64,000 bases of DNA from Thermogemmata fonticola (GTDB lineage: Bacteria > Planctomycetota > Planctomycetia > Gemmatales > Gemmataceae). Location: positions 496,001 to 560,000 of the forward strand of contig NZ_JACEFB010000001.1 of the NCBI RefSeq assembly GCF_013694095.1, given 5' to 3'. Under the pieces are notes generated by a model. That model was not told the DNA's origin. It saw only the letters and a program-made list of their open reading frames with translations, and did no database searches. Numbering within the stretch: position 1 is the stretch's first letter; every line of letters begins with the position of its first letter. Below, in pieces: positions 1,590 to 58,367 of the stretch. Made by a program: the position numbers and the translations under genes.

Positions 1590-3422
<1,833 letters not shown>

Positions 3423-7401: not shown

Positions 7402-7494
7402 ATGGCTCACGGGGAACTATATGCGGTCCATCCTACCAGGTCTCAGCGCCTAAGGCACCGCAAGATCGGCAAACGATTAATGGGAGGTCATGGG

Positions 7495-8919
7495 ATGTTC
7501 AGCCACGACTCCAAAGGTACCCAGAGCCGCCAACTTTGGTCCCGGCGTCAGATGCTGCAAGCCGCTTCGGCGGGTGCCGGCTTCGGGTATCTCGCCTTTG
7601 TGGACCTGCTGGCACGGGCTGGCGCCAGCGGGGGATTGCACCCCTTGGCGCCCAAACAAGGCCACCATCGCGCACGAGCCAAGCGGGTCATCTTCCTGTT
7701 CATGCACGGCGGTCCGAGCCATGTGGACACCTTCGACTATAAGCCAGTCCTGGAAAAAATGGATGGAAAGGAGCTGCCCTTTGAACCGGCCAAAGGAACG
7801 ACCGTCTCGCGCAAACTGATGAAGCCGCTGTGGAAGTTCCGCCAGCATGGTGAGAGCGGCTTATACATCTCGGAGCTGTTCCCCGAAGTGGCCCGGCATG
7901 CGGACGAGCTGTGCGTCATCAACGGCATGCACACCAACGGACAAAGTCACGGTCAGGCTGTGCTCATGCTGCACACCGGCGAGATTGCCTTGACCCGTCC
8001 CAGTGTGGGCGCGTGGATCACCTACGGCCTGGGCACGGAAAACCAGGACCTGCCGGGCTTTATCACCATCTGCCCGACCCGTGGACACGGCGGTGCTCAG
8101 TTGTATGGCAACGCCTTCCTACCCGCCGTCTACCAGGGAACTCCAATCGGGCATGCAGGCATCCCTGCCGCCCATGCTCAGATCAAACATCTCCACCACC
8201 CGGATTGGACGCCAGAGATTCAGCGGTACCAACTGGACTATCTGCAAGCCCTCAACCGGGAGTATGCCGAACGGGCAGGCTTTGACGATCGTCTGGAGGC
8301 CGCGGCGGCCAGTTACGAGCTAGCCTTCCGTATGCAAGCCGCCGTGCCGCGCATTGCTGACATCCGCGGAGAAAGCAAAGCCACGTTGGATTTGTACGGC
8401 ATCGGCCGGCAACCCACGGATGACTTTGGCCGCCAGTGCCTCATGGCACGGCGTTTCGCCGAGGCCGGCGTCCGCTACATCCAGGTTTCCCATTCCTTCA
8501 AATGGGATCAGCACGGCAACATGCCCCAACACGCGAAAAACGCCCTGGAGGTGGACAAGCCTATTGCCGGTCTGCTGACAGACCTGAAAGCCCGCGGTCT
8601 GCTCCAGGACACCTTGGTCCTTTGGGGGGGAGAGTTTGGCCGCACGCCGGTCACTCAAGGCAAGGATGGACGCGATCACAACCCGCAAGGATTCACCATG
8701 TGGCTCGCAGGCGGCGGGGTCAAAGGAGGCTTTTCCTACGGGGAAACGGACGAGTTCGGCTATTATGCCGTCAAAGACAAAGTCCACATGCACGATCTCC
8801 ACGCCACCATCCTATGGCTGCTAGGATTGGACCACGAAAAACTCACCTACCGCCATGCGGGCCGTGATTTCCGGCTGACCGATGTCCACGGCCGAGTGGT
8901 GCGTGAAATCTTTGCTTGA
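7495..8919 (+). CDS. DUF1501 domain-containing Tat-exported protein
   Basis: A 474-residue protein with a twin-arginine signal ([16 protein letters not shown]), so it is probably exported folded. The DUF1501 domain (sulfatase/alkaline-phosphatase-like fold) is recognised by [18 protein letters not shown] near residue 65, [33 protein letters not shown] and the [31 protein letters not shown] ending, quoted here only as the start and end of a conserved block (residues about 440-468). ATG 7495 follows GGGAGGT with ideal spacing; another ATG at 7480 is in frame. It lies 93 bases after the DUF1549/DUF1553 gene, the usual planctomycete pair, probably one operon. The biochemical role of DUF1501 is not known. 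Confidence 0.9.
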
Positions 8920-9276
8920 ACCTGATCTACCTCTTTCGCTCCATACCGATCCTCCCGAATCTGCACGCCGGCATAAACACGCGGCGGGGAGATAACCCGA
9001 ATTGCATGGGGAATCTCCCTGTTACCGCTCGTCCTCTCAGCAACTGGCGCTGACAGCTCTTCCCTCAAGCGTTGCTGAAGATCCGTCCGTGATACTTCCC
9101 CGCCTAGAAAGTAGCGTCATTCCTTGACCGAGGCCAAGAGGGAGGGCGTTACACTCTGCCATTCCTGGGTGCAGAGGAGATGTGCTGAAGTTCAACTTGC
9201 CTGGGAATATCGCGCGGCGGCCGCTAAAATGACGATGAATGAAATCGACACTATGCGAATAAGAGACGGAGGTGCG
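8920..9276 (+). other. Intergenic stretch without a recognisable gene
   Basis: About 350 bases between the DUF1501 gene and the lipB-like gene. No reading frame here looks coding. A TTGACC at 9123-9128 resembles a -35 box, but no -10 box stands at a suitable distance. No tRNA or riboswitch fold was recognised. Confidence 0.4.
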
Positions 9277-10041
9277 GTGAGCCGAACGAATGGTCCCGGT
9301 GCGAATCCCGGAACGTTTCCGCGGGATGACTCCTCCCCTGTTCTCCGAGCCTATTTACTGGGGACGGTGGACTGGGACAGCCTGCTGCAAATGCAGCGGC
9401 GCCTGATTTATGAGGTGAGCGGCACTAAGGGGACCAGCGCCGTGTTGATTTGCGAGCATCCGCCGAGCATCACGATTGGCCGGGAAGGCAGCCGGGATCA
9501 CATCCGTATCGAACCCGCCTGTTTAGCGCGTTGGGGGTGGCCGGTACGCTGGCACGCGCGTGGCGGCGGCGTGATGCTGCATTTACCCGGCCAACTCGCC
9601 TGCTATCCGATCGTGGTGCTGTCTCAGTATGGCTGGACCCCGGCAGAGTATGTTCAGCGACTGCAAGCGATCGCCTTGGAGTTATTACGGAGTTACGGAT
9701 TGTCAGCCTCGGCAGACCCCCGCTGCCCTGGTGCTGTTGTCTCCGGCAGGCGGATAGCTCACGTGGGAGCAGCCATCCGTCATGGCGTCACCTGTTTCGG
9801 CCTGCTAGTGAACGTGGACCCCGACTTGCAGCCTTTCCACCGGGTCCGCTGCGACGGAGATGACAAACCGATGACCTCCCTTCAGCGGGAGATTGGCAGC
9901 CGCTTCCGCATTAGCAGCGTACGCCAGCGGCTTCTGGAAATTCTGCAACAGCATTTGCAGACCGACCGCCTGTCGATTTTCCATACATTACCGGACCTTC
10001 TACCCCGCCCACGCCACCATGTTACCATTACCCGTAGTTGA
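9277..10041 (+). CDS. LipB-like octanoyltransferase with altered catalytic residues
   Basis: LipB moves octanoyl groups from acyl carrier protein to lipoyl domains. This 254-residue protein has the LipB fold: [15 protein letters not shown] near residue 58, [15 protein letters not shown] at 93-107 and a [14 protein letters not shown] block at 157. Compared with E. coli LipB (from memory), the catalytic Lys is Arg159, the FHG motif after it reads CFG, and the active-site Cys appears as RVRCDG (Cys192) with one residue missing before it. It may be inactive, or a changed acyltransferase. GTG 9277 follows GGAGG by four bases; in-frame ATGs at 9229 and 9253 are alternatives. It overlaps lipA by 23 bases, so the two are co-translated. 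Confidence 0.75.
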
Positions 10042-10975
10042 AGCAGCACCCGCAACTGTTCCGCATGAATCAGCGAGCCGGAGTGGTCGAAGCGCTCGCC
10101 CAGCGAACCATCGTGGCCCGAGGCTTCCACCGTGGTTGAAGCGGCCTCTGCCCCGCGGTAACGGCAACAACTTCACCCACAACCTGCTCCAGGACCTGCG
10201 CCTGGAAACGGTTTGTGAAAACGCCCGCTGCCCGAACCGCCCGGAATGCTGGGCCCAGCGCACCGCCACCTTCATGATCCTGGGGAATGTCTGCACACGA
10301 CCCTGTAGCTTCTGTTCGGTTCCGAAGGGAACACCCCAGTCTGTGGATGAGGACGAGCCGGAACGACTGGCGGAAGCCTGTGTGCGGCTGGGTTTGCGGC
10401 ATGTGGTCATCACTTCGGTGACGCGAGATGATCTGCCAGATGGAGGCGCAGAACATTTTGTGCGATGCCTGGAAGCGGTCCGCCGCCGCCTGCCCCACGC
10501 CACCCTCGAAGTGCTCACCCCGGACTTTCAGGGCCACGTCGCCGCCATTGACCGGGTAATCGCCGCCCGGCCCCATGTCTTCAATCACAATTTGGAAACC
10601 GTACCTCGCCTCTATCGGGTGGCGCGGGGGCGAGCTGAGTACCGCCGCAGCCTCGCTCTTCTGGCTCGTGTCAAGGAAAAGGACCCCGCCATTTTCACCA
10701 AAGCGGGACTGATGCTGGGATTAGGTGAAACTCTCGACGAGGTCCTGGAGGTATTCGCTGATTTACGGAGCATCGGCTGCGATATTGTCACCCTCGGCCA
10801 GTATCTGGCCCCGACACTACACCACAGCCTGCCCGTGGCTCGCTACCTCCCGCCGGAGGAATTTGACTCCATCGCCCAATTGGCGCGCTTGCTGGGCTTC
10901 CGCCACGTGGTGGCCGGACCGTTCGTCCGCTCCAGCTATCACGCCGCGGAAATGCTCCCCGCTCATTCCGCGTGA
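10019..10975 (+). CDS. lipA: Lipoyl synthase
   Basis: Radical-SAM enzyme that inserts two sulfurs into octanoyl groups bound to lipoyl domains. The 318-residue product has every hallmark: [13 protein letters not shown] (auxiliary cluster, CX4CX5C), CTRPCSFC (radical-SAM CX3CX2C), [41 protein letters not shown] and the RSSYHA ending that ligates the auxiliary cluster. ATG 10019 lies inside the 3' end of the lipB-like gene. The lipA stop codon overlaps a possible GTG start of the next gene. Unlike its two neighbours, it shows no altered key residues. Confidence 0.96.
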
Positions 10976-11049
10976 CTCGGAACGACATGCCAAGGGGTCC
11001 AGCATCTGGGGGACTCGATTCACTCCACGACGAGGTGGCAGGTAGTCTT

Positions 11050-11316
11050 ATGTACCCGGAGATGGTACCGATCATTCTGCCCAATTTGGGAACGGACCGG
11101 GCGGTACTCAGCGCTTGGTACGTACATCCTGGCGAAACGGTTTATGCCGGGGATCGCGTGGCAGAAGTCCTCATCCCCGGAGCCACGGTGGACATCCCCG
11201 CGCCGATCGATGGCGTGCTCGTGGAGCGCCAAGCGGGGGTGGATCAAGCTTTGTTCCCCGGTAGCGTCCTCGGCTATCTCTCGCCCCTCGCCGCCGAGGA
11301 AGGGGGACCCTCCTGA
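11050..11316 (+). CDS. Lipoyl/biotinyl-attachment-like small protein without the acceptor lysine
   Basis: An 88-residue single domain resembling the lipoyl domain of 2-oxoacid dehydrogenase E2 subunits: MVPIILPNLGTDRAVLSAWYV, then HPGETVYAGDRVAEV and PAPIDGVLVER. At the hairpin tip, where the lipoylated lysine normally sits in a DKA motif, it reads IPGAT. The protein contains no lysine at all, so it cannot be lipoylated or biotinylated there. It directly follows lipA, with a GTG at 10972 overlapping the lipA stop. ATG 11050, after an AGGTAG, starts right at the domain; ATG 10987 and GTG 10972 are in-frame alternatives and also add no lysine. Confidence 0.75.
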   Translation: MYPEMVPIILPNLGTDRAVLSAWYVHPGETVYAGDRVAEVLIPGATVDIPAPIDGVLVERQAGVDQALFPGSVLGYLSPLAAEEGGPS

Positions 11317-11465
11317 TCTTTTCTCCGGTGCTCCAACTCCCCGCGTATTCCACACTCCATACTCGAAAGCAGGGGGACATGTAGCCAAGCGCGGCCTGCC
11401 TCACTATACTTTCTTATCTCATGTGGGTGTGAGCTTTCGGAACAGAATATCCGAGGGTACGTGCT

Positions 11466-11801
11466 GTGGGAGTGCGCATTCGTTTGAAGCAGATGGGGCG
11501 GCGCCACCGGCTGTATTACCGCATTTGTGCGATGGATTCCCGGCAGCCCCGTGATGGCAAGGTCCTGGAAGAGCTGGGAACTTACGATCCCCATGTGCCT
11601 GATCCAGATGCGGCCGTGACGCTGCGTCCGAGCCGGATCAAATATTGGCTGAGCGTGGGCGCCCAACCGACGGACCACTGCAAGGTGCTGTTCCGCAAAT
11701 ACATGAAGAAATGGGAAGCGATTGAGGCGGAACAGGCCGCCGCCCGGCAAGCCTCGGCCGCCGATGCACCGGCTCCTGCCTCCACAGCTCCCACGGGCTG
11801 A
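11466..11801 (+). CDS. rpsP: 30S ribosomal protein S16
   Basis: Component of the small ribosomal subunit. The GTG start gives MGVRIRLKQMGRRHRLYYRICAMDSRQPRDG, seen here only as its conserved beginning (residues 1-31), then LEELGTYDP and the DRIKYWLSVGAQPTD-type motif, all typical. The 111-residue length exceeds the usual 80-90 because of an Ala-rich tail (about 25 residues) at the C-terminus. trmD follows after 48 bases. No rimM lies between them, although the order rpsP-rimM-trmD-rplS is common in other bacteria. Confidence 0.96.
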   Translation: MGVRIRLKQMGRRHRLYYRICAMDSRQPRDGKVLEELGTYDPHVPDPDAAVTLRPSRIKYWLSVGAQPTDHCKVLFRKYMKKWEAIEAEQAAARQASAADAPAPASTAPTG

Positions 11802-11849
11802 GACTCCCCTTGGGCCTACGGCCCCGTTTCTGGGGGCGAGGAGGAGGGC

Positions 11850-12596
11850 GTGATCCGCTTTGATGTGCTGACCTTATTTCCCGGTCTCTTTGACAGCTAC
11901 CTGCGCCACAGCCTTCTGGAAGACGCCATTGCGAAAGGCCTGGTGCAAGTCCACCTGTGGAATATCCGGGATTGGTCGCACGACAAGCACCACAAAGTGG
12001 ACGATCGACCCTTCGGCGGCGGACCGGGCATGGTGCTTATGGCGCCCCCCGTCGTGGAGTGTGTCGAGGCCGTGCAAGCGCAAGCGCAGCCTCCGGGCCG
12101 GGTCATCCTGCTGACCCCCGCAGGGGAACGCCTCACCCAACCCTTGGTCCGGCGGCTGGCCCAGGAACCCCGCTTGCTTCTCGTGTGCGGGCGCTATGAG
12201 GGATTCGATGAACGCATCCGCGACATTCTGCACCCTTGGGAGATTTCCATCGGCGATTACATCTGCAACGGCGGAGAAGTTCCCGCGATGGTCATCATCG
12301 ATTGCGTGATTCGCTTGGTTCCTGGGGTGTTAGGCGATGAACAGAGTATCGCGGAAGAATCGCATAACACTCCGGGCGAGTTGGAATACCCGCAATATAC
12401 TCGGCCCAGAGTGTACCGCGGGCACGAGGTTCCGCCGGTGCTATTGAGTGGGAACCACGCGGCCATCGCGGCATGGCGGCAGGAACAGGCCGCTTTGCGC
12501 AGCCAGCAGAGGCGCCTCCGGCCTTCCTTGGTCGATGCGCCCCATGAAACCCCGCCGCCCCACTCCTCCTGGCCCGCGGAAAAGGCGACGTCCTAA
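11850..12596 (+). CDS. trmD: tRNA (guanine(37)-N1)-methyltransferase
   Basis: Methylates G37 next to the anticodon, which prevents frameshifting. The 248-residue product begins [18 protein letters not shown] and carries [42 protein letters not shown] and the trefoil-knot motif [40 protein letters not shown], a conserved block near residues 186-210, follows. Start GTG 11850 has a strong GGAGGAGG site. It lies between rpsP and rplS in the common ribosomal/translation operon. Confidence 0.96.
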
Positions 12597-12682
12597 TCGC
12601 TCAGGAGGACTGTAAGAGACTTCCTTCCAACACCCAAGCGGCCCAATCAGGGCCACATTTTCTCATCCAGGAGAGGTCTATC

Positions 12683-13210
12683 ATGATCGGCACACTGCTG
12701 CGTCATGTTGAGCAACAGTACCTGCGTACGGACATTCCAGACTTCCGCATTGGCGATCGGGTGGAAGTCCACCAGCGAATCCTGGACGGTCCCAAGGAGC
12801 GCATCCAGGTTTTTGAGGGGGATGTGATCGCCCGGCAGCATGATGGCGTCCGGGAAACGTTCACGGTGCGCCGTATTGTCCAGGGAGAAGGCGTGGAGCG
12901 TATTTTCCCCTTGCATTCTCCACGCATTGCGAAGATAGTGGTCAAGAAAGCGGGCAAAGTCCGCCGGGCGAAGCTCTACTACTTGCGGGAACGAGTCGGG
13001 AAAGCCACCCGCATCCGTGAGGATAAGGAACGGCAAGCCCGGATCGACGAGGAACTCCGGCGCGCTGCGGAAGAGGCCGCCAAGGCCGCTGCGGAAGCGG
13101 CGGCTAAGGCCGCCGCCGAGGGCGGAACCAGCAAGTCCGCTCAGAAGAAGAAAGCCAAACGCGAAGCTCAAGCGAGTGGTAACACCGGTGCCAAGGGCAA
13201 AAAGAAATAA
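12683..13210 (+). CDS. rplS: 50S ribosomal protein L19 with a long basic tail
   Basis: Ribosomal protein at the subunit interface. The first 113 residues are normal L19: [47 protein letters not shown] and [19 protein letters not shown] tail of about 60 residues then follows, rich in Ala, Glu and Lys and ending in [12 protein letters not shown] and GKKK. This makes the protein 175 residues instead of about 115. The Ala-rich repeats could form a helix and the basic end may contact rRNA (inference). The 3' end overlaps the likely start of yraN. Confidence 0.95.
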
Positions 13211-13742
13211 CCCGTCCTCCCTCTCCTCAGTTGAGCGGCACGACTCCGCACGGGACTCTTCCACCCCTTGGTGGCAGCGCTGGCGTCGGGCACTCTGCCC
13301 TTCCCATGATGATGCTTCCGCCGACCACTTCACCCGTTGGCCTTGGTGGCGGCGGTGGTTTGGCCACCGCTGTGAACGGGCGGTTGCCGCCCATCTCCGC
13401 CGCTTGAAGTTTATCCTCCTCGCCGCCAATCTCCGCCTCTCGCCTGGCGAAATCGACCTCCTCGCTCTGGACGGAGAGACCCTGGTAGTTGTCGAGGTCC
13501 GCTCCACCCAATCCTCCCGGCCAGAAGCGATCCAAGAGATCATGGCCTCGGTCGACCAGCGCAAACAACAGAAGCTGACGCGAGCTGCCCTTGCCTTCCT
13601 TCAGCGTTATCGAGCCTTGGGACAAGTTCCTGTTCGCTTCGATATCGTCGCCGTTGCTTGGCCGCCCCACGCCCGTTATCCCCTCATCCATCACATTCCC
13701 AATGCCTTCGAGGCCCAGGGAAGATTCCAGTTCTTTTCCTGA
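13176..13742 (+). CDS. UPF0102/YraN-family nuclease-like protein
   Basis: Contains the YraN core, a restriction-endonuclease-like fold: [23 protein letters not shown], cited only as the start of the domain (about residues 62-84), then [23 protein letters not shown] with the GEIDL and VEVR active-site-like residues, and later FDIVAV. The role of the family is uncertain. No ATG exists before the domain. The frame offers GTG codons at 13176 and 13188, both inside the rplS tail, so the gene is probably translationally coupled to rplS. The N-terminal 60 residues, Trp/Arg-rich, are not conserved as far as I can tell. Confidence 0.75.
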
Positions 13743-34677: not shown

Positions 34678-34693
34678 TGGGAAGGAAGAAGGT

Positions 34694-34802
34694 GCCGGCA
34701 ATGACCTACTCTCGCCCTGGACGGACTACCATCGGCCCCTAAGCGTTTCACGGCCGTGTTCGGAATGGGAACGGGTGTTTCCGCTAGGGTATGGTCACCG
34801 GC
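34694..34802 (-). rRNA. 5S ribosomal RNA
   Basis: On the minus strand the sequence contains the conserved 5S loop region CCCATTCCGAACACGG, with AAACGC and GATGGTAGT in the right places, and matching ends GCCGGTGACC and GGTCATTGCCGGC that form the terminal helix. Length about 109 bases. It is 76 bases downstream of the 23S gene; that spacer has a seven-base-pair hairpin at 34814-34832. Confidence 0.93.
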
Positions 34803-34849
34803 ATAGTCGGTAGCGCTTGCAGAGGGCAAGCGGGAGTGTGTTTGGGAAT

Positions 34850-34861
34850 ATCTGGCAGGCA
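34850..34861 (-). repeat. Downstream arm of the 23S processing stem
   Basis: ATCTGGCAGGCA on the plus strand here is the exact reverse complement of TGCCTGCCAGAT at 37865-37876 in the rRNA leader. In the transcript the two segments flank 23S rRNA and can pair over 12 bases. They probably bring the precursor ends together for RNase III-type cleavage (inference). Confidence 0.6.
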
Positions 34862-34878
34862 GAGGGACACGAGAGAGT

Positions 34879-37660
<2,782 letters not shown>

Positions 37661-47151: not shown

Positions 47152-48468
47152 CTACTTTTTGTAGTCCTTGCCGTCGAAGCTATCGCGGACTGAGCGTTGC
47201 CAAGCCTCCAAGTCGCGGCGCATCTTGGCGACCTGCTCGGGATAGCGGTCGGCCACGTTGGTCCTTTCGGCTGGGTCGTCCTCAAGGTGATACAGCACCA
47301 GCTCCCCCTGGCCCTTCTTGGTGTAGACGCCTGGTGGGTTGACCATCAGCTTGAACGGCCAGTCAATCCACACGGCCCAGGTGTCCTTGATGAAGTCGCT
47401 TTGCGCAAGGTCCTTCACAGTTGGCTTGGGGGCAAGGAAGCCCATGGGCGTTGGGCGTTTCTTCATTTTGCCCTCCAAGGCCGGGAACAGACTGATGCCG
47501 TCGAGGGGATACGGGGCCATGTCGCTGCTGCCAACCGCCTCAAGTAAGGTGGGCAGCATGTCCTGGTGGAAGCACGGGAAGGTACAGCGGATCGGCTCCT
47601 GGAATCGGCCCGGCCATTCCAGGCAAGCGACCGTGCGAACGCCGATATGCAGCTTGCCTTTGCCCGAAGGGTCCATCGACAGCGGTGTGATGCCGCCGTT
47701 GTCGCTTGTAAACCAGATGATGGTGTTGTCTGCGATGCCAAGCCGGCGCAATTCCGCTCGGAGATTGCCGACAGCGGCATCGATGCCGCTGATCTCGGCC
47801 AGGAAGTGGGCGTATTTGCCCTGGTCGGCGTAGAGCTTGAGGAACTCCTCGGCACCGACGTGGGGAGCGTGCGGGGAGCCGAAACAGACGTAGGCGAAGA
47901 ACGGCTTCTTCAGGGCAGCCTGTTTGCGGATGAACTCGAGGGCCAGGTTCATCGTGAACACGGAGCTATCTCCCTCGATTTTGATTCTTTCCGGCTTTTT
48001 GTTGTTGTCGTAGACGACAAACGTGCCGCCGATATTGAAGTGGTCGGGCGAGAAATACGACACGTCGAAGCCCTCACGGATAGGATTCCCGCCCAGGTGC
48101 CACTTGCCGAAATGGGCGGTCGCGTAACCGAGCTTGTTGAGAAGCTCGGCGATGGTAACCTCTTGCGGGCGCATGGCCCCAAGGCGGGCCAGGCCGGTGC
48201 GGAAGGGGTTGCGGCCGGTCAGGATGGCGAAACGCCCCGGCGAGCACATCTGCTGCGCAGAGTAAAAGTTGTCGAAACGGACGCCGGTCTTGACCAGGCT
48301 ATCGAGGTGCGGCGTTTTGACGATTTTGTTTCCACTGTAACCCGTGTCGCCCCAACCCATGTCATCGGCCACCACGATGACGATATTCGGCCGCTTAGCA
48401 TCGCCAGCCAGGGCGAACTGCGGTGCGAACACGATGGCGGTGACGGCCAACAAGCAGCGGTAAATCAT
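47152..48468 (-). CDS. Exported formylglycine sulfatase, module B
   Basis: 438 residues. The signal peptide ends near FALAG. The sulfatase domain begins RPNIVIVVADDMGWGDTGYSG with metal-binding Asp pair. The formylglycine motif is CSPGR (Cys75 to Arg79), followed by LTGRNPF and the W/HLGG region (FGKWHLGG). WFTSDNGG carries the second metal ligands. It would remove sulfate esters from glycans after Cys75 is oxidised. ATG 48468 follows GAGGAG. It is the last gene of the second four-gene module and precedes the remnant gene by only a few bases. Confidence 0.93.
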   Translation of the reverse strand: MIYRCLLAVTAIVFAPQFALAGDAKRPNIVIVVADDMGWGDTGYSGNKIVKTPHLDSLVKTGVRFDNFYSAQQMCSPGRFAILTGRNPFRTGLARLGAMRPQEVTIAELLNKLGYATAHFGKWHLGGNPIREGFDVSYFSPDHFNIGGTFVVYDNNKKPERIKIEGDSSVFTMNLALEFIRKQAALKKPFFAYVCFGSPHAPHVGAEEFLKLYADQGKYAHFLAEISGIDAAVGNLRAELRRLGIADNTIIWFTSDNGGITPLSMDPSGKGKLHIGVRTVACLEWPGRFQEPIRCTFPCFHQDMLPTLLEAVGSSDMAPYPLDGISLFPALEGKMKKRPTPMGFLAPKPTVKDLAQSDFIKDTWAVWIDWPFKLMVNPPGVYTKKGQGELVLYHLEDDPAERTNVADRYPEQVAKMRRDLEAWQRSVRDSFDGKDYKK

Positions 48469-48535
48469 GGTGTACTCCTCCGTTGCACAGAGGCGCATCG
48501 AAAAGGAGACCAGGTTCATCTGCGCGTTACCTCTG

Positions 48536-49876
48536 TCACTCTGCCAGAACCACAAAGCGTAAGGTAAAGTTCCCCGGCCCGGCGTGGCGGCTGTAGACCA
48601 GTAGGCTGCGGCCATCCCCGGACGAAGCTAAAGCCGGTTGCCTCTCGAATACCCCCTTTTCTGCCGCGACCACCACGCCCACTGGCGATTTGGCCCGCAA
48701 TTCCTCGATTTGCTTCCCGTGCTTTTGAGGGTCTTTCTCTTCAAAGCGGACGGAACCGAAATCGAGAGGCTGCCCACTTGCAGGGTCAATCCGCGTCGCC
48801 ACGAGGTCCACCTCGACTGCCACCCCCGCTTTTTGACCCGCTTTGACATCCGTGCCACGTTCGCTGACGACCAGAAAGTTCTTGCCGTCGTAAACGGAAG
48901 CGGCCCACAGCTCATTGGTGGGTGCATAATGTTGCGGCATTCCCACGACGAGATAACGCTCGCCTTTAGGCCAGACCGCACTTTGGAAGACGCAATTGTA
49001 CGAGCCATGGCCGACCTGCCGATAGCTCCAAAGATAAGCCCGCCGTGATTTAGGGTCGGCGGCCAGGGTGTAACTGTGGCCGAAATAATCGAAAGGAATG
49101 ATTTCGACTTGCCCATCTCGTTTGACACGGAGTAACCAGGAACCGCCGTAGGACCAGCCATCGGGATGCTTTTGGGCAGCGATGAGATAACCTTCACCCT
49201 CCCAGCGAACTATGGCCCCCAGTAACGAACCGTTCTTGCCGAATTCACTCAGAACAGTGCCATGGGGCTTTGCCACTTTGCCGTCCTGGAGAAACGTGCC
49301 TGCCAGGACATACCGTTCGGGACCGCTTGGATTGGGCCGCAGGTCGGACCATACCAGGAACGTCTGTTTGCCGTCAGAGGCCAAGTTGGGATGAACCTGA
49401 TTGCCGGGACCATCAGCAACAGGAAAGCCATCGGGGTCGAGGACTTTACCGTCAGGGGAAACGCGTGCGGCAAAGACATCCCAGTCTCGACCGCTGCGAT
49501 AGTCCTGCCAAGCTACGACAAAGTTCGAACCGTCGAATGTTACCTTAGGATAAAGCTGATGGTGACCGGCACGACAAACCACAACACCTTTGGGATCCAA
49601 CGGCTTGCCTTCCGCAGAGACCCGCGCCGCCCAAATGTTGGCGTCGGCAGTCCCTTCGTATCCCGATCCCTCCTGCCAAACCACCAGATAGACACCGCCG
49701 CCCCAGGCCACATCCGGCCAGCGTTGATTGCCTCCCGGAAACTCCGGAGCCACCGCTGCCGCCGAACCCACCTTCAAACCGCCCTCCTTATCCTGATAGG
49801 CCAAGCTCATCAGGACCGCCAGGCCCGACATTATTAGGAGCATGGCAGGCAATGCGTAGCCGATGAATTTTTTCAT
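48536..49876 (-). CDS. Exported propeller-like repeat protein, module B
   Basis: 446 residues with signal peptide or N-terminal anchor (ALPAMLLIMSGLAVLMSLAY). The body contains repeats built on 'yLVVWqe...iwaaRVsaeGkpLDPkGvvv': YLVVWQEGSGYEG, FVVAWQDYRSGRDWDVFAARV and TFLVWSDLRP, about 50 residues apart. Such repeats fold as propeller blades in secreted proteins. The end carries GDGRSLLVYSRHAGPGNFTL. The start codon overlaps the stop of the preceding gene (ATGA), so they are translationally coupled. Ligand unknown; carbohydrate or substrate binding is inferred from the neighbourhood. Confidence 0.8.
   Translation of the reverse strand: MKKFIGYALPAMLLIMSGLAVLMSLAYQDKEGGLKVGSAAAVAPEFPGGNQRWPDVAWGGGVYLVVWQEGSGYEGTADANIWAARVSAEGKPLDPKGVVVCRAGHHQLYPKVTFDGSNFVVAWQDYRSGRDWDVFAARVSPDGKVLDPDGFPVADGPGNQVHPNLASDGKQTFLVWSDLRPNPSGPERYVLAGTFLQDGKVAKPHGTVLSEFGKNGSLLGAIVRWEGEGYLIAAQKHPDGWSYGGSWLLRVKRDGQVEIIPFDYFGHSYTLAADPKSRRAYLWSYRQVGHGSYNCVFQSAVWPKGERYLVVGMPQHYAPTNELWAASVYDGKNFLVVSERGTDVKAGQKAGVAVEVDLVATRIDPASGQPLDFGSVRFEEKDPQKHGKQIEELRAKSPVGVVVAAEKGVFERQPALASSGDGRSLLVYSRHAGPGNFTLRFVVLAE
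48570..48621 (-). repeat. 52-base direct repeat, copy 2 (in intact gene)
   Basis: Identical to 46814-46865, inside the 3' end of the module B propeller-like repeat gene. Confidence 0.85.
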
Positions 49877-51138
49877 GGTTTGTTCTCCTCGGTTGCGTCG
49901 GCTTTGCGAAGCCGGAAGAAAACGGTCTTGCTTTTGAACGGCCCCGGAGGACCGGCCTCCCACCAGATACCATCTCGACCCATGATGGCCGTAAAGTTGC
50001 CAAGGTCCCAGAATTGCTGGCCTACGCCCCAGGTCCCGTCTTTCTGCAACACTTCAACCCGGTCGGGAAGGTAACGAGAAAGCGCCGAGGGAATCTCATG
50101 ACGTGCCAGCACGTTGCCATTGGGGTCGACCGAAAAGCCAAAGCTGCAATGCACTTGATAGCAGGCTGGATCACCCAGACCCCAACGGCGGTCCTTGATC
50201 AGAAATTCGGGGGGAGCATAGCCGGCTATCGGAACGTACTTTCCCTCAGGTGTGACTTTGGCGGCATCCGGCCAACACCGCCCGCCGATGTAAATGGAGC
50301 CGTCCGTATGCCAGACTAGCGTTACGCCTTCGCCCGAGCCGATCTGGACTTGCCGAGGCTTGGCGTTGGGCCACTTTTGCGCATAGATAGCCGCCAGGTC
50401 TTGCGAAGCCTTGGCTTGCGTAATCAGGGTAGTCACCCGGCCCTGAGCATCCGCTTTCGCTAACCCTCCGGCGAAGGTGAAATAAAGATTTCCCTGCGGG
50501 TCCATTGTCAACCCTTTGCCGAAACGACCAAATTCCGCCAAGCGTACTTCTTCATTCACCCCAGGAAGACTGCCCCGCGACCCGCGGCCGGCTACGGTTT
50601 CCAGAAACCATGTTCCATCGCTCCGACGGGAAAGTTTTCGCAACAGACCGTTGTCGTTGATAAACAGGGTGTGTCCAGACGCCGCTACCGAGAAATAGCC
50701 GCCGCCATAGACCCCCGGTCCCAGCAAACCGGAGAATTCCCCAGGCCCATCCAAGGTGTCGCCCAGGTCATTCCCACCGGCAATCGGCCAGATTTCCCCC
50801 TTCTCCAGTTTCCAGAATTGCCGCCGCTTGTCGTGAAAGTACAAACGGACGCCGTCATCCTTGCCCAGATAAAGCTGATCAGCTTGCTCAATGGGACGGA
50901 CCATATGGGGCAGACTTCCCCCCACTGCCCAGCGAGCTGGACCGCCGAATGATCGGCCGTTCTGGCACATGGCAAACGCAATGTGTTCCGCACGCCAGCC
51001 GGGCAGGAATTTGATTTCAAACGGCGGCGCGGGCAGCCACTCGTTTTTGGATTCCTGGGCTGACGCTCTTCCCGACGGCCCAATCAGCACTCCCGACAGC
51101 AGAAGTGGGACATACAGGGAGAAAAGGCAGCGTGTCAT
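49873..51138 (-). CDS. Exported NHL/propeller-like protein, module B
   Basis: 421 residues. A signal peptide (LLLSGVLIGPSGRASA) precedes a beta-rich body of short blades: LFINDNGLLRKLSR, FGKGLTMDPQGNLYFTF and ADAQGRVTTLITQ, which fits NHL-type or similar six-bladed propellers. EHIAFAMCQNGRS near the start is shared with the module A protein (EHFAFCCMDG). No catalytic motif was recognised. It follows the thioredoxin-like gene by 40 bases and overlaps the next gene by four bases. Confidence 0.75.
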   Translation of the reverse strand: MTRCLFSLYVPLLLSGVLIGPSGRASAQESKNEWLPAPPFEIKFLPGWRAEHIAFAMCQNGRSFGGPARWAVGGSLPHMVRPIEQADQLYLGKDDGVRLYFHDKRRQFWKLEKGEIWPIAGGNDLGDTLDGPGEFSGLLGPGVYGGGYFSVAASGHTLFINDNGLLRKLSRRSDGTWFLETVAGRGSRGSLPGVNEEVRLAEFGRFGKGLTMDPQGNLYFTFAGGLAKADAQGRVTTLITQAKASQDLAAIYAQKWPNAKPRQVQIGSGEGVTLVWHTDGSIYIGGRCWPDAAKVTPEGKYVPIAGYAPPEFLIKDRRWGLGDPACYQVHCSFGFSVDPNGNVLARHEIPSALSRYLPDRVEVLQKDGTWGVGQQFWDLGNFTAIMGRDGIWWEAGPPGPFKSKTVFFRLRKADATEENKP

Positions 51139-51178
51139 TTGTGTCTCTCCGATACGAGGTGTAAATGCTCGTTGACTT

Positions 51179-52453
51179 TCACTTGGGTTTCAAGTAAGCG
51201 GCATCTCCAGCTCCGCCGGGTGGCAAGCGGTCGGTGGGACGTGGCTTGGCGACCAACTCGAATGCAATGCCTAAAGGTTGAGCACCGGGGCGGTATCCTC
51301 CCCCGCCGTGCTGAATATGGCCGGTCACTTTACCCAGCGCGACCAGATCGAATCGCGTGAAAGCGGCCTGGGACCGGGAATAGACGAGCTTTCCGAGGAT
51401 GACTGGCTCATAGGTCAGATCGTCGCCAAGTTGCAGCTTCGCCTGGCCTTCCACGCGCAGGCGAATCTCCTCGCTGTCCGTGTATTCCACGCTGACGGTC
51501 AACCGCCCGTCTTTGGTAGTTGCCTTGGCGAAGCAGGGACCTTCGGTGAAGCCCACGCGGGGATTCAAGTGATAGCGAAACAACCGCAATTGCAGCGATT
51601 CAGGGACCGGCAATTGCTGGCCTTGTGCAGTAGCGTTTGCGATCAAGGCCTTCCCTTCCTCCGCGAGCACCCACATCGTATCGTCGAAGGGTTCCCGGCA
51701 AAGCTTCCGGTTGCGTTCCGGCGTCTTTTCGGTGTAGTCGCTCGGCTGGGTGTAGCGGATGGTACCATCAGAATTGCGTCCGAGTTGCCGCAGGTAAACC
51801 CGCAGAATCAACGTTCCCGCGGGAGCTTTCGGCAGGCCATCATCAACGCGTTGGTTGTCTTGGAGCAAATCCGCCGGCCCACGCTTATCCGCCTCCGGCA
51901 GACTGTCGAACGTCTGCAACGCCTTCTTCAGCATCCCCAAGGCCACTCCCGGCGTGTTGAAGGCGATGCGTCCGAGGTGTTTCCCGGAAGCTGTCACCAC
52001 GTCCATGCAGAAGTTCGAGGTCAACGCTGTACTGCCCACATTAGCATTGCGGAAAAACGTCCCGACGGCATCTTGCCGCTTGCGCACGGTTCCAGCGTCA
52101 GGCACCGTGACAGCAATGCATCGCTCCTTGACCAATCGAGTGAACTCCTCGTTCCACACCGCCGGGTCGCGCGCTGCGGAGACGGACCAGCGGCAATTGC
52201 CGAGCGGTGAACCACGGTGCCCTGACAGAATCAGCAAGGGCTTGCCTTCCTTAGCCGCCTGTAACCGGGCGTTGTGCACATCGGTTTGCCAGTGGACCTG
52301 CCAGAAGCGGCATTCTCCCGGCTGCGGCTTGATAAATTGGTGCCATGGATCGAAATTTTCCCAGGTCAGTTCGCGCAACGGGGGTGCCGGTTGAGCCAAA
52401 AGGCACAGCCCAGGCAATAAAAACCACACACTCATAGCGAAGCGACGAAGCAT
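51179..52453 (-). CDS. Exported thioredoxin-like protein of unknown role, module B
   Basis: 424 residues. A signal peptide (SVWFLLPGLCLLAQ) is followed by PQPGECRFWQVHWQ and the thioredoxin-like start KEGKPLLILSGHRGSPLGNC, where Cys87 sits after the strand but in place of CxxC there is only one Cys. FTRLVKERCIAVTV is the matching next strand. The C-terminal 250 residues have an ASGKHLGRIAFNTPG stretch and a beta-rich end (KLVYSRSQAAFTRFDLVALG). No known family was recognised for that part. It starts the second module; its paralogue is the interrupted gene at 57069-58367. ATG 52453 follows GAGGCGGT. Confidence 0.75.
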   Translation of the reverse strand: MLRRFAMSVWFLLPGLCLLAQPAPPLRELTWENFDPWHQFIKPQPGECRFWQVHWQTDVHNARLQAAKEGKPLLILSGHRGSPLGNCRWSVSAARDPAVWNEEFTRLVKERCIAVTVPDAGTVRKRQDAVGTFFRNANVGSTALTSNFCMDVVTASGKHLGRIAFNTPGVALGMLKKALQTFDSLPEADKRGPADLLQDNQRVDDGLPKAPAGTLILRVYLRQLGRNSDGTIRYTQPSDYTEKTPERNRKLCREPFDDTMWVLAEEGKALIANATAQGQQLPVPESLQLRLFRYHLNPRVGFTEGPCFAKATTKDGRLTVSVEYTDSEEIRLRVEGQAKLQLGDDLTYEPVILGKLVYSRSQAAFTRFDLVALGKVTGHIQHGGGGYRPGAQPLGIAFELVAKPRPTDRLPPGGAGDAAYLKPK

Positions 52454-52555
52454 GGGTACCGCCTCAAATGCAGAAGCAATGGCCCGAATCCAAGCTGTCA
52501 AGCCTCACCTTCGTTCCCAATTTTGGAGTGACGAGCAGCGACTATGCGGTCGGCC

Positions 52556-54067
52556 TTATCTCTTTCGATACCAGACGGGTGTGCCGAACCATTCGTGCAT
52601 TTCTTTTTCAAAGCGGGCGACGACTTCGGGCGGTTCTGGAACCCATCCGCGGTCGCCGGTTTCCGTGATCCACGTGTCCAAGGCCGTCCGCAGTCGTACA
52701 AGGGCTTGTTGGTGTTCAGGCTTCTTCGACTCGGCTAAGTTGTGAATTTCGTAAGGGTCGGCTGCGGTGTCGTAGAGTTCCTCTTCTGGCAGGCGGGAAC
52801 GCATCAGGGCCAAGGGTGGTCCTGATAGTTTGCCTTCGGCGTGCAACTGCCGCATGAGAGGGATGACCAAAAAGCATTTCTCCTTGTAGCGGTTCAAAGC
52901 GAGGAACGACTGCTCCGGCATGTAGTTGCGGATATAACGATAACGAGCATCCCGAACGGTACGGATGCGGTTGACAGTCTCATCGATGCGATCCCGCGCA
53001 CTGAAGGCATAGGTGCGCGGCGGGTCTGCTTGCGGACCGAGAAAGATTCGGCTCTGCATCAACGGGGGGCGAGGCAAACCGGCAATGGCCAGCGTCGTCG
53101 CCGTCAGGTCGAGTAAACTAATGACTTGACCGCTGACCGACCCGGCTTTCCAGGATGGAGGAGCGGGAAAATTCTTCGGCCAGCGAATGATCATGGGCAC
53201 GTGCAAGCCGCTATCGTAGCACCAATGGATCCCGCGCGCTTCCAGGCGGCCATTGTCCGCGAAGAAAACAATCACCGTATCGTCCTCCAAGCCATCGCGG
53301 CGTAACGCTTCCAGAATCCAGCCGACGCGGCGATCCAGGCCGGAGACTGCATTCAAATAGCGCGCCCACTCTTGTCGGGTGATGGGGTGATCGGGGTAGT
53401 AAGGCGGCGGAGTGACTTTGTCCGGGTGGGCAATCTGCGGATGCTCGCGTTCGCCGACCCACTCCACCCGCTCTTTCTTGGCACATTTGCGGTCGTAAAT
53501 GTCGTATTCGACCTCCGGCAGGTTGATCATGGCGAAGAAAGGCTGGCGATTTTTCAGTGCGGACCAATCCTCCGACTCGAAAATGGGGCCTTCATTGACG
53601 AAATTGAGGTCGAGTTTGCCAGTGCCAACCCATTGACTGCCAATGGTACGAATGTTCGCCGTGAAGTAACCCGCATCCTTGAGCCAATGCGTTAAGGGCC
53701 GAACGCCCGGCGGCAAGCGGAAATCGTCATCGCGGTGGCTACGCATGTGGTGCGTGTCCGTCGTCGTTTGATACATGCCCGTCATGATAGCCGATCGACT
53801 CGGAGCGCAGACCGGCGACGTGGCAAAAACACGCGTATAGCGGACCCCTTGGCTAGCCAGGCGATCAAGGTTCGGCGTTTGAACTTGGTGCATGCCATAA
53901 CAGCCCAGGTCTGGCCCAATGTTCTCCGCGACAATCCAGAGAATATTCGGCCGACGCTGGGGTTTCGCCAGTTCCGGCGGCTGAGAACTGACGGTTCCTG
54001 ACAGCAACAAGACACCAACGAAGGCCAACGACAACTCCACGCGGCATGGCCGTCCGACTGCCCTCAT
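52556..54067 (-). CDS. Exported formylglycine sulfatase, module A
   Basis: 503 residues. A signal peptide (LSLAFVGVLLLSGTVSS) precedes RPNILWIVAENIGPDLGCYG; the usual metal-binding Asp-Asp of the family reads Glu-Asn here. The formylglycine motif CAPSR is at Cys87, followed by MTGMYQTTTDTHHMRSH, which matches planctomycete sulfatases of the heparan/N-sulfoglucosamine type. VFFADNGRLEARG and the C-terminal EELYDTAADPYEIHNLA are typical. ATG 54067 follows GGGGGTGG; ATG 54124 is an upstream alternative. It closes the first module. Substrate unknown. Confidence 0.92.
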   Translation of the reverse strand: MRAVGRPCRVELSLAFVGVLLLSGTVSSQPPELAKPQRRPNILWIVAENIGPDLGCYGMHQVQTPNLDRLASQGVRYTRVFATSPVCAPSRSAIMTGMYQTTTDTHHMRSHRDDDFRLPPGVRPLTHWLKDAGYFTANIRTIGSQWVGTGKLDLNFVNEGPIFESEDWSALKNRQPFFAMINLPEVEYDIYDRKCAKKERVEWVGEREHPQIAHPDKVTPPPYYPDHPITRQEWARYLNAVSGLDRRVGWILEALRRDGLEDDTVIVFFADNGRLEARGIHWCYDSGLHVPMIIRWPKNFPAPPSWKAGSVSGQVISLLDLTATTLAIAGLPRPPLMQSRIFLGPQADPPRTYAFSARDRIDETVNRIRTVRDARYRYIRNYMPEQSFLALNRYKEKCFLVIPLMRQLHAEGKLSGPPLALMRSRLPEEELYDTAADPYEIHNLAESKKPEHQQALVRLRTALDTWITETGDRGWVPEPPEVVARFEKEMHEWFGTPVWYRKR

Positions 54068-54206
54068 TGCCACCCCCAACCGCCTCGCCTGCAAAGCCTC
54101 GGACATCCCAGGGAACAAAGCCAAGCTCTAAGCCTCCCTTCTTTGTTCCTTCGGATCGCTCATCCGTCTGCTACGCCGTCCGACTTCAAGCTCCCCTCTG
54201 CTAGCG

Positions 54207-55592
54207 TTACGGGCTGGCCTTCTTCAGACTCACCCGCCGGGCCACCAGCTTTATGTCCTCGACACCCCGCAGCTCACTATTGACCACCAAACACACCCCC
54301 TGCGGCCCTGCACTCACCGCCGGTAAAATGTGCTCCTTGCCCGGCTCGGCCGCTATCTTGAAGCCGCCCTTGGCACGGCCGCAGACGATTTTCGTTCCGT
54401 CCGGCGACACGTACCATCCCGCGATGCACATGTGAGTCGCCACACCTTGGCCTTTCACCCCCTTCGGTTCCTTGGCATCCTGGGCGTTTTCCATGACATA
54501 GAGGAAATGCTCGCCGTCAAAAGCCACGGCCGTGTGAGGCGTCAGATAACTCACCCGCGCTTGCTCCAGGCCATCGAGCGCAGTTCTCGTTGTCTGAAAG
54601 GCTCCATCTGGAGAGAGCGTCCAGAGCGTGGCCACATAGGGTGAACCGCCCCCGAAACCTTCCGCCATTCGCACCGAGGTGACGAAAGAGGATCCATTCC
54701 AGGCTACAGGAAGCCATCGCGCCGTCACCTTTCCACCTAGTCCCCGCCCACTCTTCCGAGCGTCCGAAGTAGGAGGGAGAGGTCCATGTTTGCGCGCTCC
54801 TGTCTTGGCGTCCAGGAGAATCCAATTGATCACTGTGCCGCCAAATCGGTTGTGCCTTTGTTCCACAAAGGTGACGGCCAGCACATCCCCGCCACTGGCG
54901 ATCGAAGGATGAGCCGCTTGATACGCCTTGTTGCTCACTAACTCCGTGGGCGTCGCATCGACCAACTTCCCTTGCGGGGAAACCCGTGCTCCATAAATTG
55001 CGTAGCCATTGCCGGGAGTGTTCGGCAAACCCGAACCCACGAAGGCCGACCAAACCACGTGATAGTGGCCGCCTGCAAACGCTGCCGCCGGCTCACACTG
55101 ATTGTGTTCGCCTCCGGCGATCAGGAAGGGTTCCCCTTGCGGCTTGCCCTCAGCACTGACCACGATCCCGCGAACGTCCCAGTCCCGACCATTGGAGAGT
55201 TCCCCCCATACCACCAGCCAATTTTGCCCGTCCGAGGCAACACTGACGTAGGAACGCAGCCCCTTTCCGTACGCCAGGCGAATCCCTGCTGGGTCGAGCG
55301 ACTGGCCATCCTCGCCGACGCGGGCGCACCAGATTTCCGTGCTTCCTTCATTGAGGCAGCCTTCACGCCAGGCTACCAGCCAGCTTTTCGCTCCCGCCGC
55401 CCAGGCTACTGCCGCTTGAGTCTGCGCACGTGCCCCGGCTGCCTTCGCCGCCACTTCCTGCGGAGGACTGATAAGCGTTTGGTATTCATCAGCACCACTC
55501 GCTCCTCCGGTACTTATCCATCCGGCCACTCCACTGGCCATTGCGGCAAGGAACAAGCCGCTCCATACCCATTTCCCCTTACGCTTCCTCAT
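54207..55592 (-). CDS. Exported propeller-like repeat protein, module A
   Basis: 461 residues with a signal peptide (VWSGLFLAAMASGVAGW). The repeats are diverged copies of those in the module B protein: WLVAWREGCLNEGSTEIWCARV, cited as its start, NWLVVWGELSNGRDWDVRGIVVS and YHVVWSAFVGSG. The C-terminus ends DIKLVARRVSLKKASP. ATG 55592 follows GAGGGG and the preceding gene's stop is ten bases upstream, so they are co-transcribed. The role is unknown; same position in the module as the 48536-49876 gene. Confidence 0.78.
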   Translation of the reverse strand: MRKRKGKWVWSGLFLAAMASGVAGWISTGGASGADEYQTLISPPQEVAAKAAGARAQTQAAVAWAAGAKSWLVAWREGCLNEGSTEIWCARVGEDGQSLDPAGIRLAYGKGLRSYVSVASDGQNWLVVWGELSNGRDWDVRGIVVSAEGKPQGEPFLIAGGEHNQCEPAAAFAGGHYHVVWSAFVGSGLPNTPGNGYAIYGARVSPQGKLVDATPTELVSNKAYQAAHPSIASGGDVLAVTFVEQRHNRFGGTVINWILLDAKTGARKHGPLPPTSDARKSGRGLGGKVTARWLPVAWNGSSFVTSVRMAEGFGGGSPYVATLWTLSPDGAFQTTRTALDGLEQARVSYLTPHTAVAFDGEHFLYVMENAQDAKEPKGVKGQGVATHMCIAGWYVSPDGTKIVCGRAKGGFKIAAEPGKEHILPAVSAGPQGVCLVVNSELRGVEDIKLVARRVSLKKASP

Positions 55593-55602
55593 TTCTTGCC
55601 CC

Positions 55603-56958
55603 TCATGGCAGTTTTTGGATGCTCTCTTTCCCGAAGTCGATGGGGCCGACACGCCACACCCAGGCATCTCCCCCGCCCATGCTGTACAACTGATAAAAGT
55701 AGCCAGGGTCGGCCATGACCCAGCCTCTACCCCAGGCGGGAGCTTTATCCGGGGGACAGGCTTGCCAGGTCAGCTCGCCGCCACCAGAAGCTTGCTTGGT
55801 GGGAAACTCCCGCCACTCCCCGTCCTTACACAGCGTCGAGACGCGGCCATCCTTGAAACGCCGCAGCGGCGCATCATCTACCGCTCCGAAAAACACAATG
55901 TCCGGAGCCCAGGTGCCGCCAGCCAATAGCGGCCCGCCGAAAAACGCCGCCTGCCTCAACGCATCGCCGTCCCATCTCTTGTTCACATCCCCAGCGTCCT
56001 GCGCCACACGCCATGCTTTCTTGCGGTCCGCTGTTACCTTGACCACGGTCCCCTTCGGATAGTTGCCCTGATACCAGCCCAGGTAAAAACTGCCGTCGGG
56101 AGTCACCACAATCTTTTCCGCGGGCGGCAATGGTTTTCCGTCATGTCGCGTCCCAATTTCTGGCTTGCCGAGATAGTCCGCCGTCGAAAGAACGCACGTG
56201 AGCGTGCCCTGGGCATCGTCGTACTGCCACAGGTTCCCCTCGCTGTGAAAGTAAACATTCAGCTTACCACCCACGCGACCGGTGGTGATGAACGGCAGCT
56301 TGTCGAAGAAAACGTCTTTCGCGGCAATCGACTTTCCCACTTCCGTGGGCGGAGCGCTCTTGCCCAGGCCAATGATTCGCTTGAACCACCACCGGCCGCC
56401 CTTTTCCTTGTTCCGCCAAACCTTGTAAATGCTGTATTCCAGACCGGTGCCCAAACCCGCTCGGGTGAGCAAATAGCCCGCCGGTTGACCGTCTGGCCCA
56501 TCCCGCAAAGGGTTCCCCACTGCCACCACCGTGGAAATGGGGTTGCCGATGCCTCCCACCCGTTGCAGGTGCGGGATAAACGAGGCTGGTCCTTCGTCGA
56601 CATTGAGCCGACCATGCCAATAATCCGCCCCGGCAATCGTCTCCACCATGCCATCCATCCGGGCCACCCGCAGCCCGCTATCCCCGTGGGCTGGAATGAA
56701 GTAAAGGTTCCCTTCGTCGTCCACGGAAACTGCTTTCGTCACCGGTGCCATGGCCTCCTTACGCGGGCCGTCCAGATAACCATCCATGCAACAGAAGGCG
56801 AAATGCTCGTACTTCGGCGGTCCCGATATTTGGCTCCCCGGCGATGGTTTGTCCTGCCCGCTCGTCTCCGTCGCTAGCCACCCCGCCGCCAGCACTGCTG
56901 ACGCAGCCAGGGTGCAAAAAGAAGGGTTGATCCAGCGTCGTTTACAAGGTCTGAACAT
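55603..56958 (-). CDS. Exported NHL/propeller-like protein, module A
   Basis: 451 residues with a signal peptide (LAASAVLAAGWLATETSG). The body has blades such as AVSVDDEGNLYFIPAHGDSG, LNVYFHSEGNLWQYDDAQG and IVVTPDGSFYLGWYQG, typical of NHL-like propellers. It is the paralogue of the 49873-51138 protein, although strongly diverged. ATG 56958 follows GGAGA. The upstream gene ends 110 bases before it, with no clear promoter between. No catalytic residues were recognised. Confidence 0.78.
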   Translation of the reverse strand: MFRPCKRRWINPSFCTLAASAVLAAGWLATETSGQDKPSPGSQISGPPKYEHFAFCCMDGYLDGPRKEAMAPVTKAVSVDDEGNLYFIPAHGDSGLRVARMDGMVETIAGADYWHGRLNVDEGPASFIPHLQRVGGIGNPISTVVAVGNPLRDGPDGQPAGYLLTRAGLGTGLEYSIYKVWRNKEKGGRWWFKRIIGLGKSAPPTEVGKSIAAKDVFFDKLPFITTGRVGGKLNVYFHSEGNLWQYDDAQGTLTCVLSTADYLGKPEIGTRHDGKPLPPAEKIVVTPDGSFYLGWYQGNYPKGTVVKVTADRKKAWRVAQDAGDVNKRWDGDALRQAAFFGGPLLAGGTWAPDIVFFGAVDDAPLRRFKDGRVSTLCKDGEWREFPTKQASGGGELTWQACPPDKAPAWGRGWVMADPGYFYQLYSMGGGDAWVWRVGPIDFGKESIQKLP

Positions 56959-57068
56959 GCGTCTTTCTCCCGTGCGGCTTGGATTGGCCCGGCGGTCCGA
57001 CCCCGGCGGCCTTCGGCGACCTTTCCTAGGCCGGACCACTCCAGGGTTACCGAAGCAACTCAGCCCAG

Positions 57069-58367
57069 CTACTTCCGGCTCGTTAGCACGAGCGGTTTGG
57101 GTTCGAGGTACTGCTTCAGGTCATCGCGGGCACCGCGAGGCCAGACCAGTTGGGCTTCCGTCGGCTTCTTCACCAATTCGTAAAAGATGCCGAGATAGTA
57201 TTTCCCCACAATCAGCCCACGCGGCGAATTGTTCCCCTCGCCGAACGCCAGTAAATCGAAGCGGGTCACCTCTTGCTTCACCCGGTCGTAAGTCAGGTAA
57301 CCCAGGATGGCCGGTGAGTAGGAAATCACCTTGCCCTTAGGGCCGGGGTCCTTGACGGAAAGCTCGAAGCGTCCCTGGAGCTTGAGGCGCAGCTCCTTGT
57401 CCGAGACTTCCTCGACGGTGACGGTAACTTGGGCTGCCGCGGGCTGCACACTGGCGAATTTGACACTTTCCCCCAACCCTCGCTCTGGGTCGAGCTGATA
57501 GCGAGCCAAGCGAGCCACGAAGGAAGCCGGGGCCGCATAGCTCTTCCCTTTCTCCGGAGACGAAGGCAAAAGCGCCTGCCACTCGGCTCGGGGGATCCAC
57601 ATCATGTCCTGAGCGGGTTCCCGGAGGCGTTCCCAGCCGGATTGGCCCTCGCCGGGCGTGTAGTCCGCCTGCTCCGTGTAGCGCAGGGAGCCGTCCGGAT
57701 TCGCCATGAATCGGCGGAACTGACCCATGAGGATCAGTGTTCCCTCCGGCGGACGGTGCAGCGGGCGTTTCGGGTCCGCTGGGCCATAGGCCACTTTCAA
57801 GCCGGGCTTGCGTTCCTCCTCCGGCAATGCTTCCCAGGCGGCCAGGATTTTCTTCAAACTGGCCATACGAAGCCGATCGTTGACCCACAGCACATCACCG
57901 AGCTTTTTGCCCGAAGCTGTGATGACACTGGTCTTACCACTTGCGGTTCCCGTTACACATTTGGTCTTGCGGACCATCTCGCCGATAGCATCCTGGCGCG
58001 CACTCTCCCGCCGAGCATCCACCGAGACGCACACAAACTTTTCTTTGAGCAGATTGACGATTTCTTCAGTCCACAGGGACGGCGCACGGCCGCCAGAACC
58101 GGCCGCTCAGCACACCGTGTGCGGGGGACCGCCCGCACCCGACCAGACGAAGATCGGCTTCCCCTCCGCGGCTGCCTTTTGGATCGCCTCATCGAGGCTC
58201 AGAAGCCAGGGAATCTGCCAGAAGCGGCTCTCCCCCGGCTGCGGCTGAATCAGTTGCCGGAGCTTGTCGAAATTGTCCGGCGTCACCGGGGCAGGTTCCG
58301 CCGCTAGACCTGCTAGCCCGCCCCACACCAGCGCAATCATCACTCCCCATCGTTTGCTTCGGCTCAT
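57069..58367 (-). pseudogene. Exported thioredoxin-like protein, module A, split by one in-frame TGA
   Basis: Read through one TGA (58109-58107, codon 87), the frame gives 432 residues, close to the 424 of its module B paralogue, and aligns without gaps around the stop: SGAGGPPHTVC, TGA, AAGSGGRAPSLWTEEIVN against SGHRGSPLGNC, R, WSVSAARDPAVWNEEF. A signal peptide (IALVWGGLAGLAAEP) and PQPGESRFWQ precede it. The stop directly follows Cys86, the cysteine that the paralogue also has. CGA to TGA is one transition, so a nonsense mutation is the simplest view; selenocysteine is possible but unsupported by a clear SECIS. Otherwise intact, first in the module, preceded by a promoter and operator. 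Confidence 0.7.

Follow-up and report, generated by a model that had tools for sequence, protein, structure and literature searches.

The gene on the minus strand at 57069 to 58367 of the window (the whole 64,000-nucleotide stretch of DNA analyzed here) contains an apparent stop codon that is, from sequence comparison, very probably a selenocysteine codon. Taken as a whole, we consider it highly likely that the gene encodes a selenoprotein, with UGA codon 87 decoded as selenocysteine (Sec) through SelB and a SECIS element, and that its product is a probably exported redox protein of the thioredoxin fold from a family of Planctomycetota. This large thioredoxin-like selenoprotein family is spread across the phylum and is in no protein-family library searched. 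The features of the gene are as follows.

57069..58367 (−): probable selenoprotein gene, 432 codons plus TAG, with one UGA read through; full-length homologues
58299..58367 (−): residues 1-23, probably a secretion signal, with an approximate end point (hydropathy only)
57819..58226 (−): predicted thioredoxin-fold domain, residues 48-183 (AlphaFold2 model and VIA-align)
58110..58112 (−): TGC, Cys86, adjoining the Sec codon; Cys at −1 or −2 in 85/91 UGA members
58107..58109 (−): TGA, probable Sec codon, residue 87; conserved at 91/103 homologue sites
58095..58106 (−): spacer of 12 nt from the UGA to the SECIS stem (offset scan and covariation)
58078..58094 (−): bSECIS-like hairpin GGCGGC-CGUGC-GCCGUC, 6 bp with a 5-nt loop, −8.5 kcal/mol, within the reading frame
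57168..57752 (−): beta-rich domain at the C terminus (residues about 206-400), conserved among family members and lacking a firm structural counterpart

Read from the ATG at 58367 to the TAG at 57069, the frame has the TGA at 58109-58107 as its sole internal stop. The initial annotation had placed a single in-frame TGA directly after a cysteine codon and had proposed that reading through it restores a protein of 432 residues; both statements were borne out, with TGC TGA GCG at 58112-58104 of the minus strand and no other stop in the frame. A listing of plain open reading frames, in which TGA counts as a stop, gave just 57069-58034 (321 aa). This leftover piece begins downstream of the active site, so the active-site half of the protein was lost from the listing.

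A six-frame search found matches to the protein in 55 of 95 genomes of the same taxonomic family, and almost every match carried a flag for a single in-frame TGA. Since such a flag may reflect a terminal stop, the aligned site itself was read in homologues. A profile search of the phylum gave matches in 199/392 genomes (E ≤ 1e-3), many of them weak and with the sites of many of the weakest left unread; a locus search with a narrower alignment returned 4 related loci, and the plasmid records searched held no match. The site was read in 103 matches from 99 loci, which comprised 91 TGA, 7 Ser, 2 Asp, 1 Cys, 1 Arg, and 1 Pro; the real share of TGA is probably higher than this, since copies lacking UGA were oversampled on purpose. 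No second in-frame TGA was present inside any of the matched stretches at these 103 sites. The sharing of one aligned column by TGA across homologues is far beyond chance. Because U was written as C in the search profile, Cys forms would be expected to score at least as high as Sec forms, and only one was found in the Planctomycetota genomes (L030, in genome G033). This locus retains 4 of 6 hairpin stem pairs at +12, a state that resembles replacement of Sec by Cys with the SECIS in decay. In genome G062, there were 15 family matches, including a tandem array of at least 6 family genes on one contig (L139, about 3217-13415), which is a lineage-specific expansion of the selenoprotein family.

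Identity to the window protein drops to about 25-35% among family members, and two types of site were distinguished: G-G-x-P-x-x-x-C-U, as in the window protein, and G-H-P-L-G-C-x-U-N-N-G, as in most of the phylum. Cys was absent from both −1 and −2 in 6/91 UGA members, indicating that a partner Cys is not obligatory. Gly occupied U+3 in 75/91, so that Sec has no downstream partner of the CxxC type, and an Arg was present near +7 in 89/91. The codons after the TGA were also compared with those before it. Relative to L003, dN was 0.38 and dS 1.45 over 339 codons after the TGA (0.30 and 1.23 before it); relative to L002, dS was saturated, with a protein identity of 73% after the TGA. The 345 residues past the UGA make up most of the protein and are 57-73% identical in the nearest relatives. 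Such purifying selection on the codons after the TGA shows that the downstream part is translated in these lineages.

A conserved hairpin follows the UGA. When 6-bp stems closing a loop of 5 nt were scanned across offsets, UGA members gave a sharp peak exactly 12 nt after the UGA, where a mean of 4.71 of 6 stem pairs was retained (complete in 36/91), versus 2.42 in non-UGA members. The loop begins 18 nt from the UGA in the window gene and lies a few nucleotides further downstream in other Planctomycetota. In 26 relatives, 94.9% of cells were paired and four pairs carried compensatory changes; doubly changed cells numbered 23, compared to 4.6 in shuffles, and 0 of 500 shuffles reached either the pairing or the double-change figure. 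Pairing collapsed every time that the hairpin was slid to other offsets in these relatives, and 39 sequences picked by protein alignment only gave the same covariation picture. Shuffling of synonymous codons weakened the fold in UGA members (real −6.39 versus shuffled −3.14 kcal/mol) but not in non-UGA members (−2.23 versus −2.21 kcal/mol), so that conservation of Gly-Arg does not account for the hairpin; this signal sits in the whole set, with P ≤ 0.05 in just 32% of single sequences.

The published bSECIS model calls for a loop of 3-9 nt, an upper stem of 4-16 bp, a G within the first two positions of the loop, a UGA-to-loop distance of 16-37 nt, and an MFE of −7.5 or lower (PMC13188914). 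The window hairpin agrees with all of these rules. The geometric ones hold for 90/90 distinct UGA sequences, with energies of −5 kcal/mol or lower in 74 and of −7.5 or lower in 53. Among non-UGA members, 9/12 also pass on geometry, which by itself therefore does not tell the two groups apart; 1/12 reaches −5 or −7.5. An Rfam search of the site region gave nothing meaningful. The initial annotation had counted against selenocysteine a CGGCCG/CGGCCG hairpin lying too near the UGA. That hairpin is real here, but it is not the conserved one: considered as a SECIS candidate, it was rejected, with 42.9% of cells paired and no excess over shuffles. It is locally the stabler fold in the window sequence and would compete with the SECIS, although a ribosome stopped with its A site over the UGA would be expected to unfold it.

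The source genome encodes SelA (448 bits), full-length SelB (396 bits), and SelD (291 bits), together with a tRNA-Sec gene (74.9 bits) that ARAGORN likewise called as tRNA-SeC, anticodon tca. The search for selA, selB, selC, and selD that the initial annotation had proposed therefore found all four. Among near-complete genomes of the taxonomic family, the UGA form occurred in 0/5 without SelB and a family match in 40/61 with it (Fisher P = 0.007), in a comparison counted by hand in which the 40 are any family match, their UGA status not checked individually. The five genomes without a SelB hit over the cut-off were G009, G050, G055, G068, and G094, of which G055 has a partial family match that stops short of the site. 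G073, of the same genus as the source genome, has a full SelB and no match to the selenoprotein family, and the selenoproteins for which it decodes Sec should accordingly be others; its best formate dehydrogenase match had no in-frame TGA.

These observations bear on the readings that compete with selenocysteine. The initial annotation had named a recent nonsense mutation, recoding as selenocysteine, and sequencing error; the second is now strongly supported, while the conservation of the TGA across species refutes the first and disposes of the third. A change of CGA to TGA that left the window copy a pseudogene would sit well with the Arg codon (CGC) of the paralogue in the window, but TGA stands in the same column at 91/103 homologue sites, the codons beyond it are under purifying selection, and the hairpin covaries, so that we regard this explanation as very unlikely. 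A one-base error of sequencing or assembly is contradicted by the finding of an identical TGA in independent assemblies from many genera, and its probability is negligible.

Two further explanations accept the TGA as genuine. If UGA were decoded as some other amino acid, by near-cognate read-through or genome-wide reassignment, the frame would stay open past it, as it does; against this, the paralogue and several family genes terminate at TGA, the genome encodes a complete set of Sec components, including a tRNA-Sec with anticodon tca, and the covarying hairpin after the UGA is either weak or not present in members without that codon. We give this reading very little credence. Selenocysteine decoding competes with termination in general, and this, with the competing hairpin in the window sequence, is what could be said for the UGA as a regulated stop, with an 86-residue form as the main product and the full-length protein as a minor one. 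However, the short form would stop just ahead of the active-site residue and would omit most of a protein that is conserved in the nearest relatives; we consider such regulation improbable.

With UGA 87 as a selenocysteine codon, the conserved elements suggest that SelB and Sec-tRNA(Sec) would read it, directed by the SECIS hairpin that starts within the coding sequence 12 nt beyond the codon. The selenoprotein is probably secreted: a signal-like hydrophobic N terminus was evident from hydropathy in 29/30 aligned members with an assigned start. An AlphaFold2 model built from a 5-sequence alignment reached a pLDDT of 76 overall and a pTM of 0.77, with a pLDDT of 47 in the block 81-90 around Sec; prediction from the single sequence was of no use (pLDDT 38). 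By VIA-align, residues 48-183 matched 3f9u (Z 11.1 over 105 residues, rmsd 2.2), 2lst (Z 10.3), and DsbH 2ju5 (Z 8.8). For the C-terminal domain, the structural matches were no better than middling ones to beta-barrels (Z 6 or less), taken neither for nor against a fold. Judging from fold and motif, the Cys-Sec pair (Cys-x-Sec in most relatives) would form the redox center of the thioredoxin-fold domain, most likely turning over through a selenenylsulfide with the neighboring Cys and reducing a putative extracytoplasmic substrate, either a disulfide or a peroxide. Members without Sec (the Ser, Asp, Arg, and Pro forms) presumably lack this redox function.

One such member lies in the window itself, and two further genes lie between it and the selenoprotein gene.

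51179..52501 (−): paralogue with Arg (CGC, 52190-52192) in place of Sec; the conserved hairpin is disrupted, with 4 of its 6 pairs left at +12
54207-55667 and 55603-57039 (−): two neighbor genes; in Gemmatales bacterium KatS3mg105, their homologues come after the selenoprotein gene

The paralogue aligned with the selenoprotein over its full length (37% identity; E = 3e-79). Of the alignment first described, the shared Cys and the Arg at the site stood, but the gap-free stretch is longer than the 26 residues given. The Arg had also been raised as an argument against selenocysteine, and this argument lapses, the paralogue being one of the few copies with neither the UGA nor the conserved hairpin. 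From 47152 to 58367, the window carries a pair of similar modules, both containing a sulfatase, a thioredoxin-like family member, and related large neighbor proteins; the thioredoxin-like copy kept Sec in one module and has Arg in the other. Several neighbors are common to the window and KatS3mg105 (L047), and sulfatases lie nearby in a few loci; beyond these, no clear recurring gene partner was found across the phylum loci. Elsewhere in the window, 34693-37651 carries 23S and 5S rRNA genes, with no 16S rRNA gene in the 64 kb, and these are apparently unlinked rRNA genes.

On the searches made, both the family and the scarcity of Cys forms within it are new; the mechanism is standard. None of the 119 prokaryotic selenoprotein families and subfamilies in a 2026 list was recognized as this thioredoxin-like family, and the string "Planctomyc" was not found in the main text of that review (PMC13188914). 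Selenoprotein candidates were reported in two planctomycetes by a study of three planctomycete genomes, and, going by the part of that paper available to us, an earlier sighting of the family among them is possible (PMC4807772). According to the recent review, almost every selenoprotein has Cys homologues, which are much the more abundant (PMC13188914), and a 2025 predictor warns that selenoproteins without Cys homologues may be missed (PMC12013277). A Cys-poor family fits this blind spot of methods based on Cys/Sec pairs; that its non-UGA members are Ser, Asp, Arg, and Pro forms with only one Cys may explain why such searches missed it. We put at about an even chance the wider proposition that this is a phylum-wide, locally expanding, and almost exclusively Sec family, with a chemistry that sulfur is apparently unable to perform, and that it was missed since homology methods seek Cys/Sec pairs. 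The present analysis read about a hundred genes of this kind, and a gene caller that takes TGA for a stop would split each of them. The family appears to break the rule of Cys homologues, making it a direct test case for what Sec does that Cys cannot, and it suggests that Planctomycetota are an undersurveyed source of selenoproteins.

In Pfam and NCBIfam searches, the window protein reached no cut-off. The thioredoxin-like selenoprotein Sec.1 (PF13192, motif CxU; PMC13188914, Table 1) resembles the new family in its thioredoxin-like label and Cys-x-Sec spacing, and its profile matched no member. The C-terminal thioredoxin domains of the Thioredoxin_7/DsbH/DsbD group (PF13899, PF03190; 3f9u, 2lst, 2ju5, 3ira) share the predicted fold of residues 48-183 (Z 8-11) and weak sequence similarity: Thioredoxin_7 (PF13899) scored 17.5 bits against the window protein (gathering cut-off, 27), with a best E of 0.00022 among 33 members and 7/33 at E ≤ 0.1. 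Unlike that group, the new family lacks a CxxC motif, carries Sec at the site, and has an additional C-terminal domain of about 200 residues.

The VPGUxxT proteins (NF041382, NF041383), which are also thioredoxin-like selenoproteins occurring in Planctomycetota, came closest. Their NCBIfam score was 12 bits against cut-offs of 350 and 275 (E = 0.095, against 0.011 for the top scorer among 33 members), and a profile-profile comparison, in which the VPGUxxT side consisted of five proteins from the same phylum, indicated a homologous thioredoxin domain (hhalign probability 94; E = 1.4e-7; columns 52-179). The Sec columns coincide in this alignment, so that Sec probably occupies the nucleophile position of the thioredoxin fold, behind a lengthened loop. 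Several VPGUxxT type-two proteins of Planctomycetota have two in-frame TGAs (L146 and L151; also L141, L147, and L150 by TGA count), the second of which, in L146 and L151, lies about 120 residues past VPGU within F-x-M-x-[C/U]-[YF]-W. We take this stretch to recall the catalytic motif of MsrA, which suggests that L146 and L151 may be thioredoxin and MsrA-like fusions with two selenocysteines; the 2026 review lists one (PMC13188914). The new family differs from VPGUxxT in several respects. In place of VPG-U-x-x-C/T, it has C-(x)-U-x-x-G and a longer loop (C-U-A-A-G in the window protein and C-x-U-N-N-G in most relatives, with no VPGUxxT); the match is confined to the thioredoxin domain, with the C-terminal part outside it; and VPGUxxT has Cys forms in Planctomycetota, whereas the new family has hardly any. 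On these sequence comparisons, the new family is a distant relative of the VPGUxxT thioredoxin-like selenoproteins.
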